Assembly (NCBI RefSeq): GCF_900187365.1
Contig: NZ_FYDG01000001.1
Location: forward strand, 372,001-436,000
DNA length: 64,000 nucleotides
Source of the DNA: Rhodoblastus acidophilus
GTDB taxonomy: Bacteria > Pseudomonadota > Alphaproteobacteria > Rhizobiales > Beijerinckiaceae
Reading direction: 5' to 3'
The notes beneath the pieces are model-generated. The model did not search any database and was not told the DNA's origin. It saw nothing but the letters and a program-made list of their open reading frames with translations. Position numbers and translations under genes: made by a program. Shown here in pieces: positions 4,701 through 27,349 of the stretch (its first letter is position 1; each line of letters begins with the position of its first letter).

Positions 4701-5596
4701 AGCGCCCGAAAACCGCCCTGCCCGCCCGCGATCCCCGCCTGCGCCAGATCGGGCCGGTCGTCCAGCGACAGCACAGCGACCGGGGCGGCGCCCTCGACGG
4801 AAAATGTCAGCGGCGGCGCCGCGGCGCTGGCGTCGGCGCCGGCGACCCAGCCCGACACGAACAGATGCGCGCCGGATTGGACCCGTTCCTCCATCACCAC
4901 CGTCAATTCGCCGACGGCGGCGGTTTTCGGCTGAATCGCGGCGGGCGGCGCCGCGCCGCCGTCCAGGGCCGGCAGGCGCGCGCGCGCGACGACGCGCTCG
5001 CCCGCCATCAGCTCGATTTCGGTGGGGTCGGCCGGATGCGCCAGCCGCCAGTCGCGCAGCGCGGCGGTCGCGACATGGAAGCCGAACAGGGGGTCGTCGC
5101 CGCCAAAGTCGATGGCGAGATCGTCGCGCCGCAGGTTCAGGCGCACCGGCAATTCATGGCGGCCGTCGATGCGCAGGCGCGCGGCGCCCGCGTCCTCCGC
5201 GACCAGGCCGGGATCGACCAGCCAGCCGGACAGGTCCTGCTCATCGGCGAGGTCGAGCGCGCCGCGCGGCTCGAATGGGACAAAGCGCGTGCCGGCGCCG
5301 ACCAGCGGGACCGCGCCGCCGGGGGTGATCGCGTGGATCGCCGGCCTCTCCGGGGCCTCCCCCATGGTCAGGATCACACGTTCAAAGCCGGCATAGCCGC
5401 CGGCGATGCCCGCCGCCGCCAGATCCGGCCGGAAATGGAACCGCGTGATCGACGCCTCGCCGACGCCCTCGATCGTCAGCAACAGGCGCCGCAGCCGCTC
5501 TTTTTCGGCGGTGGCGGCCCATCCGGACACCACGATATAGCCCGGCCCCGAGGCGCAGGTCTCGACAAAGCCAATCAACGCGATGTTGCCGTTCAT
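1793..5596 (-). CDS. Large two-domain glycosyltransferase (GT2 plus GT4) with N-terminal SGW repeats
   Basis: This 1267-residue protein probably builds a surface glycan at the cytoplasmic face. The first ~540 residues contain four beta-rich modules marked by SGW (near residues 24, 123, 248 and 456), two of which share RPDLAxAGIAGG and GGF(E/R). Residues ~558-790 are a GT2 domain (VSIVIPIHNAADDLE, then the LLNSDTAL metal-binding region and GYGEENDFCMR). Residues ~855-1240 are a GT4 domain (ISTETGGTPQTNRDL, SIWPETYCHTLTEMWAFGLP). The ATG at 5596 is chosen because the frame upstream lies antisense to the gene at 5684. No membrane segment is seen. The two transferase domains could add two sugars in succession; the SGW modules may bind glycan or partners, which is inference. 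Confidence 0.85.
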   Translation of the reverse strand: MNGNIALIGFVETCASGPGYIVVSGWAATAEKERLRRLLLTIEGVGEASITRFHFRPDLAAAGIAGGYAGFERVILTMGEAPERPAIHAITPGGAVPLVGAGTRFVPFEPRGALDLADEQDLSGWLVDPGLVAEDAGAARLRIDGRHELPVRLNLRRDDLAIDFGGDDPLFGFHVATAALRDWRLAHPADPTEIELMAGERVVARARLPALDGGAAPPAAIQPKTAAVGELTVVMEERVQSGAHLFVSGWVAGADASAAAPPLTFSVEGAAPVAVLSLDDRPDLAQAGIAGGQGGFRALFHCEPGAGTPQTLRVAGDGCVGMAALDSAQRSPGFPKATLTVQAGVGVFGEVVGFPDEGPGAGFELRIGDVCFPVELKGAKDANRVWSAAGVAPTEYCVGAASILNALRAAGAAAFPPEHIFTATLHRRGAAVVSGAGALLSPHQGRLERVSNRSISGWLAGHPEIPAEADVYLNGIRYATVCADRPRADLIEKNIVTRGGGFQLDIANPSPCDEHLVVSVHPAFQTGGVLGSDQATSPPPAGPYVHSAYAVSLAEKSRGVSIVIPIHNAADDLEICLKSLCDWTTFPCRAILIDDASTDPRIGEILRRHEGIAGIEIHRNAVNLGFTRTVNRGVALAGEDDVVLLNSDTALTPLWLQGLRAAAYSSPRVATATPLSNNAGVFSAPEMNGANHIPAELGVEGMARLVQHCALSAYPRVPTGNGYCLYIRRACLDEIGALDEQAFPVGYGEENDFCMRALHAGFEHVMDDRTYVYHRRSASFGASRLAHYEAGMAALKARYPEYSRLTAVFAESAEILGVRWRLRRALQAAERPRPRALFVISTETGGTPQTNRDLMRALRDHFEPWLLRCDGREIKLWRVEADGDVEIEAIRLKVPLEPLIHRSEEYDIALFDILTRHAFELVHIRHLGWHGLGIQAVCERIGIPWILSLHDFYTICPSVKLLDENNTHCGGACTPTPGECAVELWDRVSFPPLKNQFVAKWQATFGRLLGRADALVTTSPQAREIFLRRYPALADRDFRVIPHGRDFSDMGLYAAPVQAAGPLRILVPGNISTAKGAGLIAAIVAQDQGRTVEFHVLGDFGRLKAQPGLALHGRYDREEFSHKARAIQAHVGAVFSIWPETYCHTLTEMWAFGLPAIGVDIGAVGERIAAHGGGWLIAPEAAASADAVLALARGILADPGALAGKIAEVARWQQGPGRQYSTHAMASRYRQLYADVFDRARRLRPGENVRGRAKKIVEARQASLVEG

Positions 5597-6613: not shown

Positions 6614-6810
6614 AAGGAGTTAAGGCGGATTCGGGTGAACCGGAGCGCGTCCCCGGCGTTATTGACGCAAGCGAAAGAAGGCGGGACGGCGCTCACGCGA
6701 CGCGACGATCCCGCCACGCGAACGCCGGGGCCTTTCTCATCCGCATATGGGCGCCGCAGCTTGAACCTGCTTTCCCGCCCGCCGCCGGCGTCAACCCTGG
6801 GGAGGCGCAT

Positions 6811-8661
6811 GTGACTAAGCTGCTGGCCGTTTCGACTTCCATCCTGGCGCTTTGCGCGACGCAAGGCGTATGGGCGCAAGAAACGAAACAAGAGACGAAA
6901 CAAGAAACAAAACAAGACTCCAAACAGTCGATAGAACAGATGAGCCGCGATTCCAGCCAATGGGTCATGCCGGCGAAAGACTACGCCAATACGCGCTATT
7001 CCACGCTCAAGCAGATCAACACGAGCAACGCCAACCGGCTCGCGCCGGTGTGGAGCTTCTCGACCGGCGTGCTGCGCGGGCATGAGGGCGCGCCGCTGGT
7101 GATCGGGGACGTGATGTATGTCCACACCCCCTTCCCCAATATCGTTTACGCGCTCGACCTCAACAATGACGGCAAGATCCTGTGGAAATACGAGCCGAAA
7201 CAGGACGCCAACGTCATTCCCGTGATGTGTTGCGACACCGTCAATCGCGGCCTCGCCTTCAGCGACGGCAAGATCTTCCTCTATCAGGCCGACACCACGC
7301 TGGTCGCGCTCGACGCCAAGTCCGGCAAGCAGGTCTGGTCGGCGAAAAACGGCGACCCCGCCAAGGGCGAGACCGGCACCGCCGCGCCGCTGGTGATCAA
7401 GGACAAGGTGTTCGTCGGCAATTCCGGCGGCGAGTTCGGCGTGCGCGGCGCGATCACCGCCTATGACGTCAATTCGGGCAAGCAGATCTGGCGCGCCTAT
7501 TCGACCGGCCCGGACAAGGACATGCTGGTCGATCCCGAAAAGACCACCATGCTGGGCAAGCCGATCGGCAAGGATTCCAGCCTGAAGACCTGGGAAGGCG
7601 ACCAGTGGAAGATCGGCGGCGGCGCCGTCTGGGGCTGGTTCTCTTACGATCCGCAGGTCAACCTGATCTATTACGGCACCAGCAATCCCTCGACCTGGAA
7701 CCCGAAGCAGCGGCCCGGCGACAACAAATGGTCGACCTCGATCTTCGCGCGCGACGCCGACACCGGCGAGGCCAAATGGGTCTATCAGCTCACCCCGCAC
7801 GACCAATGGGACTATGACGCGGTCAACGAGAGCATTCTCGCCGATCAGGACATGGGCGGAAAGACCGTCAAGACCCTGGTGCATTTCGACCGCAACGGTT
7901 TCGGCTACACGCTCGACCGGACCAACGGCGAATTGCTGGTGGCGGAAAAATTCGACCCCTCCGTCAACTGGGCGACCAAGGTCGAGATGGACAAGAGCAG
8001 CCCCAATTACGGACGGCCCGAGGGGGTGAAGCAATATTCCACCGAAGCGAACGGGGAAGACGCCAACACCAAGGGCGTCTGCCCGGCGGCGCTCGGCTCC
8101 AAGGACCAGCAGCCGGCGGCGTGGTCGCCGGAAACCAAGCTGTTCTACGTGCCGACAAACCATGTCTGCATGGATTACGAGCCGTTCCGGGTGGCGTACA
8201 CGCCGGGGCAGCCCTATGTCGGCGCGACCCTGTCGATGTATCCGCCCGAGGGCCAGGCGAACATGGGCAATTTCATCGCCTGGGACGCGACCAAGGGCAA
8301 GATCGTCTGGTCCAATCCCGAACGCTTCTCGGTCTGGTCCGGGGCGCTGGCCACCGCCGGGGATCTGGTGTTCTACGGCACGCTGGAAGGCTATCTGAAG
8401 GCGGTGGACGCCAAGACCGGCAAGGAGCTGTACAAGTACAAGACCCCGTCGGGCATTATCGGCAATGTGATGACCTATCAGCACAAGGGCCGGCAATATG
8501 TGGCGGTGCTGTCGGGAATCGGCGGCTGGGCCGGCATCGGCCTCGCCGCCGGGCTGGCCGATCCCCATGCGGGTCTCGGCGCGGTCGGCGGCTACGCGGC
8601 CTTGAGCAACTACACCTCGCTCGGCGGCAGCCTCACCGTGTTCGCCGTCGAGCAGGAATGA
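6811..8661 (+). CDS. xoxF: Lanthanide-dependent PQQ methanol dehydrogenase XoxF
   Basis: This periplasmic enzyme oxidises methanol with pyrroloquinoline quinone. The 616-residue protein has a signal peptide ending VWA (cleavage after residue 22), then the eight-bladed propeller of quinoprotein dehydrogenases. The vicinal disulfide is C140-C141 ([10 protein letters not shown]). The catalytic Asp334 is followed by Asp336 (QWDYDAVNE); that second Asp is the marker that separates lanthanide XoxF from calcium MxaF. The start is the GTG at 6811 behind GGGGAGG. Mature residues 24-39 are an odd [16 protein letters not shown] repeat. No xoxG cytochrome or xoxJ gene follows, so the electron acceptor is encoded elsewhere. 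Confidence 0.95.
6880..6927 (+). repeat. 12-bp tandem repeat at the mature N-terminus of xoxF
   Basis: Four 12-bp units encode [12 protein letters not shown] and DSKQ directly after the predicted signal-peptide cleavage site. The units differ at only a few bases. Being a multiple of 3, copy-number change would keep the reading frame. Confidence 0.8.
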
Positions 8662-22833: not shown

Positions 22834-22909
22834 TGGCGCGCCCAAGGGGAATCGAACCCCTGTTTTCGCCGTGAAAGGGCGACGTCCTAGACCGCTAGAC
22901 GATGGGCGC
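22834..22909 (-). tRNA. tRNA-Glu (anticodon UUC)
   Basis: On the minus strand a complete cloverleaf can be drawn: acceptor GCGCCCA/TGGGCGC, anticodon loop CTTTCAC with anticodon TTC, T arm AGGGG-TTCGATT-CCCCT, discriminator G and an encoded CCA (22836-22834). The anticodon assigns it to glutamate. Confidence 0.97.
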
Positions 22910-23001: not shown

Positions 23002-24774
23002 TCACGCCGGCGCCATGTCCACCAGACGCGCCGACACCTTGGGACGCCCGCCCCAATGATCCAGCGACAAAGCGCAGGCCAGATGCGCCCGTCCCCGCGT
23101 TTGCGCCACCGCCTGCCCCAGCGTCGTTTGCGCCGAACGGAAGCTGACCAGCTCCAGCTTCGAGCCGTCGCCCGCCTGCGCCCGCACCCGCAGGTGGTCC
23201 GCGCCGAACGGATTCACTTCCGTGATTCGATGTTCGGGCAGGACGAAAACCGGCTCGGGATTGCCGGAGCCGAACGGACCCGCCTTCTCCATCTCCTCGA
23301 CCAGACGCGGCGCGCAGGCGCCGGCCGTCAGCAGCCCGTCGATCGACAGCCCCGGCCCTTTGCGCGCCTGCGCCACCGGCGCCGCAAGCGCCTCTTCGAG
23401 AAAGGCCTGGAACGCCGGCAGCTTGTCGCGCCGGACCGTGACGCCCGCCGCCATGGCGTGGCCGCCGCCCTTCTCCAGCAGGCCGCGCTCCACCGCCGCC
23501 CGCACGCAGCGGCCGAGATCGACGCCGGGAATCGAACGCGCCGAGCCGGTCGCCAGATCGCCGGAAAACGCCAGTGCAAACGCCGGGCGGCCATAAGCCT
23601 CTTTCAGACGCGAGGCGACCAGGCCGACGATGCCCGGCTGCCAGTCGTCGCCGCCCGCGACCAGCGCCGCCGCCTCCGGATCCAGCGTCAGCTCCGCCTG
23701 CGCCATGGCCTGTTCGACCATGGCCTTTTCCAGCACCTGCCGCTCGCCGTTGAGCCGGTCGAGTTCGGCGGCGATCAGGCCCGCCTGCAGATCGTCGCGC
23801 TCGAGCATGAGCTTGGCGCCCAGGGCCGCGTCGCCGATGCGGCCGCCCGCGTTGATGCGCGGCCCGAGCTGGAAGCCGAGATGCCACGCGCGCGGCGGGC
23901 CGTTGACGCCGGCGACATCGGCCAGGGCGCGCAGGCCGGGACGCGCGCGATTGCGCATCAGCGCGAGGCCCTTGACCACAAAGGCGCGATTGAGGCCGGT
24001 GAGCGGGGCGACGTCGGCCACCGTGGCCAGCGCCACCAGATCGAGGCCAAGCAGCAGGTCGGGCTCGGGATGCTCGCGCCAGTAGCCGCTCTGGCGCAGG
24101 GCGCGGTTGACCGCGACCAGGGTGAGGAACACCACCCCTGCCGCACAAAGCGCCCCCTGCCCGGAGATGTCGTCCTGGCGATTGGGATTGACGACGACGG
24201 CCTCGGGCAGGCTTTCAGGGGCCTGATGATGGTCGAGCGTGAGCGCGTCGAGGCCGAGCTTCTTCGCCTCGATGAACGGTTCGTAGGAGGTGGTTCCGCA
24301 ATCCACGGTGACCAGCAGCTTGGCGCCCTGGCGGGCGAGGCCGCGAATCGCCTCGACATTGGGGCCGTAGCCCTCGGTGATGCGGTCTGGAATGTGCAGC
24401 AGGCGCGGCGTGCCGCAATAATCGAGAAATTCCGCCAGCAGCGCCGCCGAACAGGCGCCGTCCACGTCGTAATCTCCGAAAATCGCCACGGTTTCGCGGC
24501 GCAGGATGGCGGAGACGAGGCGTTCGGTCGCCGCCTCCATGGCGGTGAGCGCGAACGGGTCGGGCAGCAGCGTCCGCAGCGTGGGATCGAGGAAGCCGAG
24601 CGCGTCATCCGGCGCGACGTCGCGGCCGGCGAGAATGCGCGACATCAGGTCCGACAGGCCCGACAATTGGGCGATGGCCAGCGCCCGCGCCCGGCCGGCT
24701 TCGTCGAGACGGTCGCGCCAGATCTTGCCGGTGACGCTGGACTGGACGCCGAGGAAAGGGCGCTCAGGCGTCAT
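23002..24774 (-). CDS. recJ: Single-stranded-DNA-specific exonuclease RecJ
   Basis: RecJ degrades single-stranded DNA 5' to 3' in recombination and repair. The 590-residue protein has all DHH-family motifs: VAIFGDYDVDGACSAAL (motif I), LVTVDCGTTS, LTLDHHQAPE (the DHH motif), DLVALATVADVAPL, then the DHHA1 region with KGGGHAMAAGVTVR and the C-terminal OB-like part. Length is normal. Its ATG at 24774 overlaps the end of the GST gene by 11 bp, so the two genes are co-transcribed and probably translationally linked. Confidence 0.95.
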   Translation of the reverse strand: MTPERPFLGVQSSVTGKIWRDRLDEAGRARALAIAQLSGLSDLMSRILAGRDVAPDDALGFLDPTLRTLLPDPFALTAMEAATERLVSAILRRETVAIFGDYDVDGACSAALLAEFLDYCGTPRLLHIPDRITEGYGPNVEAIRGLARQGAKLLVTVDCGTTSYEPFIEAKKLGLDALTLDHHQAPESLPEAVVVNPNRQDDISGQGALCAAGVVFLTLVAVNRALRQSGYWREHPEPDLLLGLDLVALATVADVAPLTGLNRAFVVKGLALMRNRARPGLRALADVAGVNGPPRAWHLGFQLGPRINAGGRIGDAALGAKLMLERDDLQAGLIAAELDRLNGERQVLEKAMVEQAMAQAELTLDPEAAALVAGGDDWQPGIVGLVASRLKEAYGRPAFALAFSGDLATGSARSIPGVDLGRCVRAAVERGLLEKGGGHAMAAGVTVRRDKLPAFQAFLEEALAAPVAQARKGPGLSIDGLLTAGACAPRLVEEMEKAGPFGSGNPEPVFVLPEHRITEVNPFGADHLRVRAQAGDGSKLELVSFRSAQTTLGQAVAQTRGRAHLACALSLDHWGGRPKVSARLVDMAPA

Positions 24775-25363
24775 GCGAATCGCGCGCGACGGCGCGCAGG
24801 AAAGCGGGACGCGTGCGGCATCGCTCCAGATAGGCGTCGAACGCCGGGCGCGTTTCGAACATTTTCAAGAGTTTTAGGACGTAATTCAGGTTCGAGGCGA
24901 GCATGACGTCGGCGGCGGAAAACGTCTCGCCAAGAATATAAGGCGTCGCGGCGAGCTGCTCCTCGACGACAGCGAAGACCCGCGCGGCCGAGCCCCAGCC
25001 CGCCGCCGTCTCCGGCAGCTTCACCTGCGCCGCCTTTTCGGTCATGGCGGCCTCGATATTGGCGCTGGCGAAGAACAGCCATTGCCAGAATTTTCCGCGC
25101 GACGGGTCGCCGACGGGAGGCGCGAGGCCGGAATCGGGGAATTTTTCCACGAGATAGGCGAAGATCGCGCCGGATTCGGCGACCGTCGCGGCGCCGTCCT
25201 GCAGCGCCGGCACTTTTTCCATAGGGTTGATGGCGTGGAAGGCGGGGGTGTGGTGCGCCCCAGCGCGCAAATCGAGTTTGTGCAGCTCGTAGGGGCGGCC
25301 AATCTCCTCCAGCAGCCAGAGCACGCGCAGGGCGCGGGTTTGCGGAGCCCAATAGAGTTTCAT
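24764..25363 (-). CDS. Glutathione S-transferase family protein
   Basis: The 199-residue protein has an N-terminal thioredoxin-like domain (MKLYWAPQTRALRVLWLLEE, then NPMEKVPALQDG with the cis-Pro and ESGAIFAYL, the glutathione-contacting Glu-Ser) and an all-helical C-terminal domain (YILGETFSAADVMLAS). It should conjugate or reduce small molecules with glutathione in the cytoplasm; the substrate is unknown. The ATG at 25363 is preferred over 25369 because GGGGGAG then has proper spacing. Its 3' end overlaps recJ by 11 bp. The strong terminator at 25424-25454 separates it from the radical SAM gene upstream. Confidence 0.85.
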   Translation of the reverse strand: MKLYWAPQTRALRVLWLLEEIGRPYELHKLDLRAGAHHTPAFHAINPMEKVPALQDGAATVAESGAIFAYLVEKFPDSGLAPPVGDPSRGKFWQWLFFASANIEAAMTEKAAQVKLPETAAGWGSAARVFAVVEEQLAATPYILGETFSAADVMLASNLNYVLKLLKMFETRPAFDAYLERCRTRPAFLRAVARDSHDA

Positions 25364-25423
25364 CGCCATCTCCCCCTAACGCGAACAAATTACGAACACG
25401 CGAGAAAAAGGTCAAGCCGGCGG

Positions 25424-25454
25424 AAAAAAAGGGGCGGCGTTTCCGCGCCGCCCC
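25424..25454 (-). terminator. Rho-independent terminator of the cbpA-cbpB transcript
   Basis: On the minus strand a 9-bp perfect stem (GGGGCGGCG/CGCCGCCCC, 6-nt loop) is followed by seven T residues. It starts 7 bp after the cbpB stop and closes the riboswitch-controlled unit before the GST gene. Confidence 0.9.
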
Positions 25455-25460
25455 AATGGC

Positions 25461-26855
25461 TCAGGCCGCGCCGATGCTGCACGCGGTTTGCGCGCCTTCG
25501 TCCCAGCCGTCCCACAAAAAGTCTTCGTGGCGACCGTCGGCGATCAGGCGCAGGGCGTAGCGGGTCTGCTCCTTGTAGAAGTCGCAGAACGCGCCCTTTT
25601 TCTCCATGCCGCCGTTCATTTCATGCGCTTCGGCCGGACAGGGCGAGCCGCAGAAATGACGAATCGCGCAGGTCGCGCACTCCTCGATGTCCTCGACCTT
25701 GCGGCCGGTCACCAACCGGAACGGCTCGCTATCGAGCACATCGGCGATCTTGTCCGTGTAAAGATTGCCGCCGGCGAAATTCGGCAGGCCGATGAATTCG
25801 CTGCACGGGAACATGTCGCCGCCGGGCGCCAGCGCGAAAAAGCTGCGGCCGCCGCCACAGGGCGAGATGTCGCACATCAGCCGCCGCGCCGTCGGCGCCA
25901 GGATCGCGATCAGGATGTTGGCGAAATTCGCCACCACCATCTTGCGGCCGGTTTCCTTGTAGAGTTCGTGGGTGCGCTCCAGCGCGGCGATGAACGCCTT
26001 GGCGACCTGGGCCTCGCCGCCATTGACCGCGCGCGCGCCCGGCATGGTGCAGCGGGTGACGTTCAACATGCAGGCGGGCACGCGGTGCTCGTGGAAAAAC
26101 TCCACCATTTCCGTCAGATACGGCAGATTCTCCGAGGTCATCGTGCAGATGACGTTATAGCCGGGATAGCCGTCGAGCATCTTCATCGCGCGGATGACAT
26201 GGTCGAACACGCCCTCGCCGCTCCAGCGCTTGCGCGTGCGCTTGGCGACGTCGGGCGCGGGGGCGTCGAGCGACAGGCCGATGCCGACGCCGCGTTCGGT
26301 GAGGAATTTGACGGCGTCTTCATCCAGCAGCGTGGCGTTGGTCTGCACGCCGAAGCGGAACTTGTCCTTAAAAGCGTCGATGCCGGCGAAAATCGCCTCG
26401 CGCGCCAGCATCGGCTCGGCGCCGTGGAAAATCACCTGCGGCAGGCGGTCTTCCGGCATATGGCCGCGGAAATACGTGTGCAGCCGCTCCAGCGCGTCCA
26501 GCACTTCCGCCGTGTCCATCTGCTTGCCGCGCTTGCGCATTTCGCCGGGAATGTAGCAATAGGCGCAGTCGAGGTTGCAGCGCTCGGTGGCGTTGAAATA
26601 GACCGCCGAGGGTTTCAGATGAAACCGCAGCATGTCCATTTCGCGGGCGAATTCCGCGCCTTTTTCGCGCAGGATTTCGACCAAAGGCCCGCCGGTGAGG
26701 CTTTCCGCGAGGTTTTCCTTGCGCACCAGGCCCCAGAAGGCGGTGTCCGCGTTCACCACGGCGATGTGGCTGGGGTGGCCGATGTCAAACGGCTCCAGAG
26801 TCGCAAGAGGGCTCCTTTCGGAGCCCTCCGCGATGACGAGCGCAGGCGCGCTCAA
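25461..26855 (-). CDS. cbpB: Peptide-modifying radical SAM/SPASM enzyme, CbpB type
   Basis: This ~464-residue enzyme should modify the small peptide encoded just upstream by radical chemistry. The 4Fe-4S cluster binding the S-adenosylmethionine is set by CNLDCAYC (CxxxCxxC) in YFNATERCNLDCAYCYIPGE. The barrel continues with QVIFHGAEPML and GLSLDAPAP. The C-terminus is a SPASM domain: CDISPCGGGRSFFAL, MFPCSEF, CATCAIRHFCGSPCPAE and FCDFY bind two auxiliary clusters. I recognise it as the CbpB family that pairs with CbpA. The likely start is TTG 26855, overlapping the cbpA stop (TTGA); no in-frame ATG gives a full N-terminus. A 9-bp hairpin lies just inside the start. Confidence 0.85.
   Translation of the reverse strand: MSAPALVIAEGSERSPLATLEPFDIGHPSHIAVVNADTAFWGLVRKENLAESLTGGPLVEILREKGAEFAREMDMLRFHLKPSAVYFNATERCNLDCAYCYIPGEMRKRGKQMDTAEVLDALERLHTYFRGHMPEDRLPQVIFHGAEPMLAREAIFAGIDAFKDKFRFGVQTNATLLDEDAVKFLTERGVGIGLSLDAPAPDVAKRTRKRWSGEGVFDHVIRAMKMLDGYPGYNVICTMTSENLPYLTEMVEFFHEHRVPACMLNVTRCTMPGARAVNGGEAQVAKAFIAALERTHELYKETGRKMVVANFANILIAILAPTARRLMCDISPCGGGRSFFALAPGGDMFPCSEFIGLPNFAGGNLYTDKIADVLDSEPFRLVTGRKVEDIEECATCAIRHFCGSPCPAEAHEMNGGMEKKGAFCDFYKEQTRYALRLIADGRHEDFLWDGWDEGAQTACSIGAA
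26807..26828 (-). other. 9-bp hairpin at the cbpA/cbpB boundary
   Basis: GAGGGCTCC and GGAGCCCTC flank a 4-nt loop, 24 bp past the cbpA stop. No T tract follows. In peptide-maturase operons such stem-loops often raise precursor levels relative to enzyme by protecting or processing the mRNA; here it also covers the first codons of cbpB if TTG 26855 is the start. Confidence 0.6.
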
Positions 26856-26983
26856 CGCTTCACCTGCTTGTCCATCAGCACGTAATGCGACAGGCCCGTG
26901 CCTTCGGCGTCGCAGGTCTTGCGGATGGCGATTACCGCCGGACGGGCGGGCGTGGCATGTGTCGTGTTGGAAGTCGTGTTCAC
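26852..26983 (-). CDS. cbpA: Modified-peptide precursor, CbpA type
   Basis: The 43-residue peptide starts at GTG 26983, preceded by CGGAG. It has a Thr/Ala/Pro-rich leader, then AIRKTCDAEGTGLSHYVL and MDKQVKR. The single Cys and the C-D-A-E-G-T-G-L-S-H-Y-V-L block are what I recognise as the conserved core of CbpA, the substrate of the CbpB radical SAM enzyme. The upstream cobalamin riboswitch and the overlapping maturase gene support the assignment. No signal peptide or double-Gly leader is visible, and no transporter or peptidase is adjacent, so the final product and its location are unknown. A longer frame upstream (to 27073) runs into the riboswitch and is rejected. Confidence 0.8.
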   Translation of the reverse strand: MNTTSNTTHATPARPAVIAIRKTCDAEGTGLSHYVLMDKQVKR

Positions 26984-26985
26984 GG

Positions 26986-27005
26986 CATTGCTCCGATGCG
27001 CAATG
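26986..27005 (-). promoter_or_regulatory. Hairpin over the cbpA ribosome binding site
   Basis: On the minus strand CATTGC and GCAATG enclose an 8-nt loop, with the CGGAG ribosome binding site in the loop and at the stem edge, ending 2 nt before the GTG start at 26983. It lies downstream of the riboswitch aptamer and could serve as its translational expression platform; this is inference. Confidence 0.45.
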
Positions 27006-27072
27006 AGGAACGTCGGCCAAGCAAAAGCGCCGGCCGAAATCCTTTCCATCGGATTTCGTCCCCCGTTTGTCA

Positions 27073-27242
27073 CATCCAGCAGGTCTTCTGGCTCTCGGAT
27101 CGTCCGAAACGGACGCCTTCCCAGCAGGGTGGACCCCGCCAGTGGCTGGCTCGGCGCCGGAGCGCTTCGCCGTGTCCGTCTCGTCCCCGATTACAGCGGC
27201 GGGACCGCCGCGGATTTGCACCGCGTTCCGGGATACTGGATG
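27073..27242 (-). ncRNA. Cobalamin (B12) riboswitch
   Basis: Minus-strand elements in order: P1 5' arm CATCCAG; GCGGTGCAAATCCGCGG; GGTCCCGCCGCTGTAATCGG; GCCAGCCACTGGC region; CTGCTGGGAAGGCG; and the B12 box GAGCCAGAAGACCTGC (27094-27079). The 3' arm CTGGATG (pairing with CATCCAG) closes P1 over exactly 27242-27073. This is the full adenosylcobalamin-class aptamer. It lies 90 bp upstream of cbpA and points at it. Classical members lower expression when B12 is plentiful, so the peptide system is predicted to be made under cobalamin shortage. Confidence 0.95.
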
Positions 27243-27349
27243 AAATGTCGGTAGGACCGGCGCGCCGGACTGTCAAGGGGCGGGCGGGACGGCGCGGATG
27301 TCGTGCGAGAGCTTTCCTGAGGACGCCGAGGCCAACGCCCCTGCCCTCT

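Follow-up and report, generated by a model that had tools for sequence, protein, structure and literature searches.

A cobalamin riboswitch-led cbpAB cassette in Rhodoblastus acidophilus and its predicted induction by corrinoids

A stretch of 64,000 nucleotides (nt) of Rhodoblastus acidophilus DNA (contig NZ_FYDG01000001.1, positions 372,001 to 436,000; the window, whose own numbering is used below) contains a Cobalamin riboswitch followed by cbpA, which encodes a short peptide, and cbpB, which encodes a predicted radical S-adenosylmethionine (SAM) enzyme. Comparison with 58 related loci leads us to favor the view that this locus is a corrinoid-induced peptide-modification cassette. A role of the pair linked to cobalamin (B12) is very probable, and the layout of the expression platforms in most relatives makes it likely that the switch is an activating one in the cbpA family. 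That corrinoid handling is the purpose of the cassette is a more tentative proposal. The parts of the cassette follow one another on the minus strand in the order riboswitch, cbpA, overlapping cbpB, terminator:

27271..27276, minus strand: TTGACA, a putative -35 element upstream of the aptamer, read by eye
27061..27255, minus strand: Cobalamin riboswitch aptamer (RF00174, 79.7 bits, E 5.4e-18, model positions 1-189 of 189)
27035..27058, minus strand: P13/L13 hairpin with 8 perfect pairs and loop GATGGAAA (27050-27043), from the comparison of leaders
27006..27043, minus strand: candidate H2 hairpin sharing the P13 3' strand, from folding and from reading five Rhodoblastus-type leaders
26992..26998, minus strand: CATCGGA, overlapping the Shine-Dalgarno sequence CGGAG (26995-26991) and complementary to TCCGATG of P13/L13, from the comparison of folds
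26852..26983, minus strand: cbpA, 43 codons, GTG start, core VIAIRKTCDAEGTGLSHYVLMDKQ (TIGR04164, 60.3 bits)
25461..26855, minus strand: cbpB, 464 codons, TTG start, predicted radical SAM/SPASM peptide-modifying enzyme (TIGR04163, 708.9 bits)
25424..25454, minus strand: intrinsic terminator, stem 25454-25431 with 9 G-C pairs, T7 tail

An initial annotation of this DNA had described a compact cassette made up of a complete cobalamin aptamer, a 43-codon peptide gene, an overlapping radical SAM/SPASM gene and a terminator, and all of these were found. The aptamer matches the entire Rfam model, and its score of 79.7 bits exceeds the gathering threshold of 31.5. Hidden Markov model searches agree with the annotated identities, assigning the open reading frames (ORFs) 26983-26852 and 26855-25461 to CbpA and CbpB with scores of 60.3 and 708.9 bits (curated NCBIfam cut-offs 35 and 375, respectively). 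The two genes overlap by 4 nt, TTGA, and no additional gene lies between riboswitch and terminator. A terminator scan returned 4 terminator-like sites in the region against a shuffle mean of 2.2, and a promoter scan found no promoter-like site. The host genome is a 4.7 Mb draft with eight Cobalamin riboswitches.

The Link to B12

The scan for relatives took one genome per species and was queried with six short words from the window protein sequence, so that it favors close relatives; it gave 58 loci from fewer genomes, L051 and L088 sharing one metagenome-assembled genome. CbpA ORFs were located by the motif GxGLSH[YF], and every locus with room for one had it. In 51 of the 58 loci cbpA stands directly before cbpB; the other seven (L072, L085, L087, L088, L090, L091, L095) have no room for it because the contig ends inside cbpB or at most 142 nt from the cbpB match.

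Rfam was run on 53 of the loci, the remaining five (L087, L088, L090, L091, L095) all being cut inside cbpB. RF00174 lies directly upstream of cbpA, within ~280 nt, in 41 of the 51 CbpA loci as it does in the window, which bears out the earlier proposal that the pair is under B12-riboswitch control. Nine of the ten remaining CbpA loci still contain B12 genes or a riboswitch at a greater distance. In L089 (5666-7789) the cbpA-type riboswitch stands 1.9 kb before cbpA, from which an IS6-like transposase gene separates it. L077 and L079 belong to operons headed by a Cobalamin riboswitch and containing cobC, cobU, cobT, cobS and BtuF-like genes (the names BtuF, BtuC and DUF71 rest throughout on scores below the NCBIfam cut-offs), and L096 is a similar operon on a cut contig. 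The pair directly follows cbiC in L060 and L065, with L066 looking alike by eye, and follows bluB in L094; in L062 the B12 genes lie 1.9 kb and farther upstream.

Among the direct neighbors are also a BtuF-like gene (L047) and cobT (L048, where a cbpA-type switch is followed by cbpA-cbpB-cobT). In L079 and L096 a Diphthami_syn_2/DUF71 gene comes directly after cbpB (Pfam was run on L079 only). The DUF71-B12 salvage proteins (PMC3541065) are thus connected with our system by gene neighborhood alone and are not homologous to it. Altogether, at least one of 15 B12 genes was present in the examined flank of 22 of the 58 loci. A genome-wide count of RF00174, which took in 50 of the 58 loci, showed under strict filters that the match before cbpA is the only one found in 6 of 50 draft genomes (G444, G450, G464, G466, G469, G474).

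Some observations speak against a link with B12. None of the 15 B12 genes was found in the examined flank of 36 of the 58 loci, L070 has neither a visible B12 link nor an Rfam match upstream, and a cbpAB pair on a Methylovirgula plasmid likewise has no Rfam match upstream.

The neighboring cobT (L048) and bluB (L094) would also fit a role of the pair in providing the lower ligand of B12 or a substitute for it, as an alternative to BluB. We regard this as most improbable, for BluB scored over its cut-off in 18 of the 52 distinct cbpAB genomes (57 minus three without cbpAB and two duplicates) and occurs alike in Rhodoblastus genomes with and without cbpAB. On this occurrence of BluB the replacement idea was set aside.

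The Sign of the Riboswitch

According to the sections of PMC10653944 used here, L13 of the P13 hairpin kisses L5 when a corrinoid riboswitch has bound its ligand. Repression is the rule among known corrinoid riboswitches, a single exception having been reported, and a repressing switch that does not form P13 forms a separate antiterminator. In the activating cobT switch of Alkalihalobacillus (A.) halodurans, which responds to cobinamide, P13 is itself the antiterminator and has a strand in common with the terminator. We found no second activating corrinoid riboswitch in the literature searched, which was judged mostly by titles and the beginnings of abstracts.

The hairpin that follows the aptamer in the cbpA leaders usually has a loop like GATGGNAA. 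A hairpin with an L13-type loop is present in 40 of the 43 cbpA leaders examined, the exceptions being L078, L080 and L093. By a blind rule, the P13 3' strand coincides with the 5' arm of the terminator (at least 3 bases in common) in 33 of 37 terminator-bearing cbpA leaders. In L046 and L074 this rule picked another hairpin, which a rule based on the L13 motif corrects. With the motif rule the strand is in common in all 35 leaders that have both elements, that is, in 35 of the 37 with a terminator; the two without a common strand are L078 and L080. Since the P13 3' strand belongs to both structures, P13 and terminator exclude each other. The same layout occurred in 1 of 23 terminator-bearing control B12 riboswitches, or in 1 of 16 with both elements scored, as seven of the 23 had no hairpin that the rule could score. 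The controls comprised 40 non-cbpA leaders picked before their platforms were seen and 9 from loci previously inspected, 23 of the 49 bearing a terminator; L145, which scored as exclusive, was kept in the count.

The common strand keeps its pairing with both partners through sequence changes, for example from A-T-A to G-C-G (paired positions tabulated). An exact platform motif had 12 matches in 54 whole genomes, 11 of them before cbpA, while the reversed control had 0; in 398 genomes of the phylum it had 3 matches, one at cbpA and two judged to be chance. The exact motif is thus present in only part of the cbpA leaders, yet is almost confined to them. L5 reads NCCCG in all 40 leaders, of 42, in which it was found, and in most cbpA leaders L13 carries a GG (often TGG) that would face it, a resemblance to the A. 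halodurans cobT switch as published. The base after this GG, which is itself part of the search rule, can pair with the first base of L5 in 20 of 36 leaders.

As that description goes, most cbpA leaders resemble the A. halodurans cobT switch in having a mutually exclusive P13 and terminator. They differ from it in controlling a peptide-modification pair across many phyla, and the version in the window has no terminator. The P. megaterium metE and E. coli btuB riboswitches, as far as they are covered by the same sections of PMC10653944, belong to the same aptamer class and have the L5-L13 kissing interaction expected of the cbpA leaders; in these repressing switches, however, P13 promotes a terminator or a hairpin that hides the ribosome-binding site, whereas in most cbpA leaders it overlaps the terminator.

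Besides the unscorable control leaders, several points count against a uniformly activating family. The complementarity of L5 and L13 is partial, with 16 of 36 leaders mismatched at one position. Because the leaders share ancestry, the 35 of 37 cannot be counted as independent. The cbpAB pairs of Omnitrophota (L077-L080) belong to cob/btu operons, whose platform has no common strand and may repress. These loci weigh against a single rule because there cbpAB joins uptake and loop-assembly genes behind another platform; L080 is one of the six cases with a single RF00174 match.

The alternative is a repressing switch, with CbpA produced when B12 runs short and serving to spare or scavenge it. The Omnitrophota operons, the repressing action of known corrinoid riboswitches with one exception (in the sections of PMC10653944 cited above) and the lack, in the window, of the terminator on which the activating argument rests all agree with it. 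We nevertheless consider repression unlikely, given the exclusivity of P13 and terminator in 35 of 37 terminator-bearing relatives against 1 of 23 controls and the distance of the Shine-Dalgarno sequence from P13 in the window. The initial annotation had suggested that the peptide is made when cobalamin is scarce; this is not supported, because the platforms of most relatives have the layout proven to activate in cobT, and its suggestion of a B12-sparing product is weakened by the predicted sign. Activation by corrinoid thus appears the likelier sign for the cbpA family.

In L044 and L045 a cob operon with a riboswitch of its own is read in the opposite direction, and in its leader P13, antiterminator and terminator could be read by eye as separate elements; the blind rule found the terminators and no P13 in these cob leaders. 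After the aptamer of L119, L124, L134, L135, L139, L078 and L079, inspection by eye showed a stretch resembling an antiterminator, centered on GGGTGCAAYCC or a near version of it. A cbpA-type platform also precedes a different operon in one cbpAB genome (L157, G445:C417; riboswitch 4792-4975, genes 4760-3, minus strand), coding for a zinc alcohol dehydrogenase, a TrpD-like phosphoribosyltransferase and then an AMP-binding ligase.

The Leader in the Window

P13 is retained in the five Rhodoblastus-type leaders, those of the window and of four close relatives, which have lost the terminator and have no U-run. No terminator was found between aptamer and cbpA in the window, where P13-terminator exclusivity is accordingly absent, and for this reason we do not file the window as a transcriptional activating member. 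Its H2 hairpin seems to resemble the relatives' terminator minus the U-run.

In all five leaders the Shine-Dalgarno sequence lies 38-39 nt from P13 (39 nt in the window). It could pair with TCCGATG of P13/L13, with one G-U pair in L042. This pairing is part of the minimum fold in L039, L040 and L042, whereas in the window and L041 the fold that has it is less stable than the minimum by 1.7 kcal/mol. The other riboswitches of the window genome look different: in 6 of 7 a Shine-Dalgarno-like sequence overlaps the predicted hairpin or is within ~10 nt of it. This repressing layout, with the Shine-Dalgarno sequence at the hairpin, is clear-cut in L001-L004, less sure in L006 and L007 and indistinct in L005.

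Folding also yields results that do not favor activation here. The accessibility of the window's Shine-Dalgarno sequence is 0.65 free and 0.67 with P13 forced, and the effect of forcing P13 is mixed among the relatives (a clear rise in L040 and L041, a slight rise in L039, a fall in L042). What is more, the free minimum fold of the window retains the upper part of P13 plus H2. The folding evidence from the window being weak, we take the sign of its switch from the family; activation in the window itself is accordingly only somewhat more probable than the reverse.

CbpA and CbpB

The conserved core of CbpA is RK-x-C-x-x-x-G-x-GLSHY. Among 53 cores compared (51 loci with L063 counted twice, plus the window), the R and the G, G, L, S and H of GxGLSH are invariant, and Y is present in 52 and C in 51. 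The exception at the core Cys in L086 is a one-residue shift. The peptide of L074 (7794-7928, Chlorobaculum), on the other hand, is truly without this otherwise near-invariant residue, so Cys is not a universal site. L063 (7699-7941, Sedimenticola) encodes one precursor with two complete cores, each with a VxAxRK segment, which delimits the repeated unit. In L077 an asparagine-synthase-like ORF (6629-7684) runs in frame into cbpA, and genes similar to it precede cbpA in L079 and L096 (Pfam on L079 only).

By its sequence, the CbpB of the window is a SPASM-domain radical SAM enzyme: PF04055 and PF13186 both scored over threshold, and its AlphaFold2 model has a mean predicted local distance difference test (pLDDT) score of 88.3. 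The radical SAM motif CX3CX2C and eight additional Cys are invariant in 48 aligned CbpB rows, and all 48 aligned relatives match TIGR04163; outside the nearest kin, identity to the window protein is 50-66%. None of the other 24 NCBIfam families listed for CbpB (25 of the 76 matched families were listed) scored over its cut-off. The fold is like that of the SPASM maturases CteB (5why), anSME (4k37) and ChlB (9gm3), with Foldseek E values of 9e-21 to 1e-16, but identity to them is just 17-22%. With the models for SCIFF maturases and anaerobic sulfatase maturases, CbpB does not reach the curated cut-offs; TIGR03974, for example, gave 90.9 bits (cut-off 425). CbpB probably modifies the CbpA core.

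PqqA and MftA are precursors of small redox cofactors, and CbpA might likewise give rise to such a cofactor for a B12-linked enzyme. The SPASM fold of CbpB and the highly conserved short core of CbpA, with 6 invariant positions across 31 peptides, would suit such a role. Still, no peptidase was annotated among the recurrent neighbors, the one candidate tailoring gene, the asparagine-synthase-like one, precedes cbpA in just L077, L079 and L096, and the two whole cores of L063 fit a repeated functional unit equally well. We therefore give the cofactor precursor about the same low standing as the repressing switch.

Occurrence of the Pair

CbpB is rare and patchy. In genome samples of the class (289), the family (149) and the phylum (398), CbpB scored over its cut-off in 1 of the 289 class genomes, the window's own, and CbpA in 4 of the 149 from the family; among the listed genomes of the genus, 3 of 6 had CbpA. 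The 58 loci span Pseudomonadota, Thermodesulfobacteriota, Planctomycetota, Verrucomicrobiota, Lentisphaerota, Omnitrophota, Chlorobiota, Chloroflexota and others. Pseudomonadota fall into a single group in the tree, but six changes are needed to account for Thermodesulfobacteriota. The Methylovirgula plasmid mentioned above, pHY1 (278 kb; L101, 11831-13410), carries cbpAB near pqqA, pqqD and pqqE. Its Shine-Dalgarno context, GCATCGGAG, is identical to that of the window and is perhaps a remnant.

Both window proteins lie far over the curated cut-offs of TIGR04164 and TIGR04163, and the names of these families give no hint of the sign of the switch. The initial annotation had called the pair undescribed, and this agrees with our search of the open literature on radical SAM enzymes, cobalamin and riboswitches, judged mostly by title, which turned up no functional description of CbpA or CbpB. 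The passages found in PMC5682303 and PMC9600662 fell in the reference lists.

Possible Function of the Cassette

The observations can be combined in the following model. A corrinoid would bind the aptamer, and L5 would kiss L13 and so hold the P13 hairpin. In most relatives P13 would serve as the antiterminator, and cbpAB would be transcribed with corrinoid present; in the window and its close relatives, where the argument is weaker, P13 may instead keep TCCGATG off the Shine-Dalgarno sequence and let ribosomes start. CbpA would then be made, and its conserved core RK-x-C-x-x-x-G-x-GLSHY would be modified by CbpB. The product would act inside the cell on corrinoids, as a carrier, a buffer or a helper in salvage or remodelling.

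Intracellular action on corrinoids seems the most likely because the cassette often travels with genes of B12 uptake, nucleotide-loop assembly and biosynthesis. A peptide made with corrinoid present, moreover, would point to the handling of corrinoids and not to sparing. That such handling is the purpose of the cassette is possible, at less than even chances. We would guess that the cassette may respond to incoming or incomplete corrinoids, because the cobT switch, in its published description (PMC10653944, in the sections cited), responds to cobinamide and L048 has the order cbpA-cbpB-cobT.

A different use of the modified peptide would be export as a metallophore that captures cobalt or B12, and the BtuF-like and BtuC-like neighbor genes of some loci are in line with it. 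However, the stretch from riboswitch to terminator in the window contains no gene for an exporter or peptidase (exporters elsewhere were not searched for), the core Cys is absent in L074, and a scavenger would not be expected to be switched on by corrinoid. An exported metallophore is therefore quite improbable, and only the lower-ligand role is less probable.

If the corrinoid-handling model is true, modified CbpA would be a new component of B12 metabolism. Corrinoid-activated cbpAB would be rare among B12 riboswitches, and with ~35 leaders predicted to activate, spread over many phyla, the one reported exception would become a class. The full proposal holds that corrinoid-activated riboswitches have in the cbpAB leaders their first widespread natural family and, together with this, that modified CbpA is a ribosomally made corrinoid-handling factor produced in answer to corrinoid. 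It is more doubtful than either the predicted sign or the corrinoid-handling purpose, and we put it forward as rather unlikely in its entirety.

Neighboring Features

Just downstream of the cassette terminator lies a gene for a glutathione S-transferase-like protein (24764-25369, minus strand). The window also contains a tRNA gene at 22837-22909 on the minus strand (RF00005, 64.8 bits).

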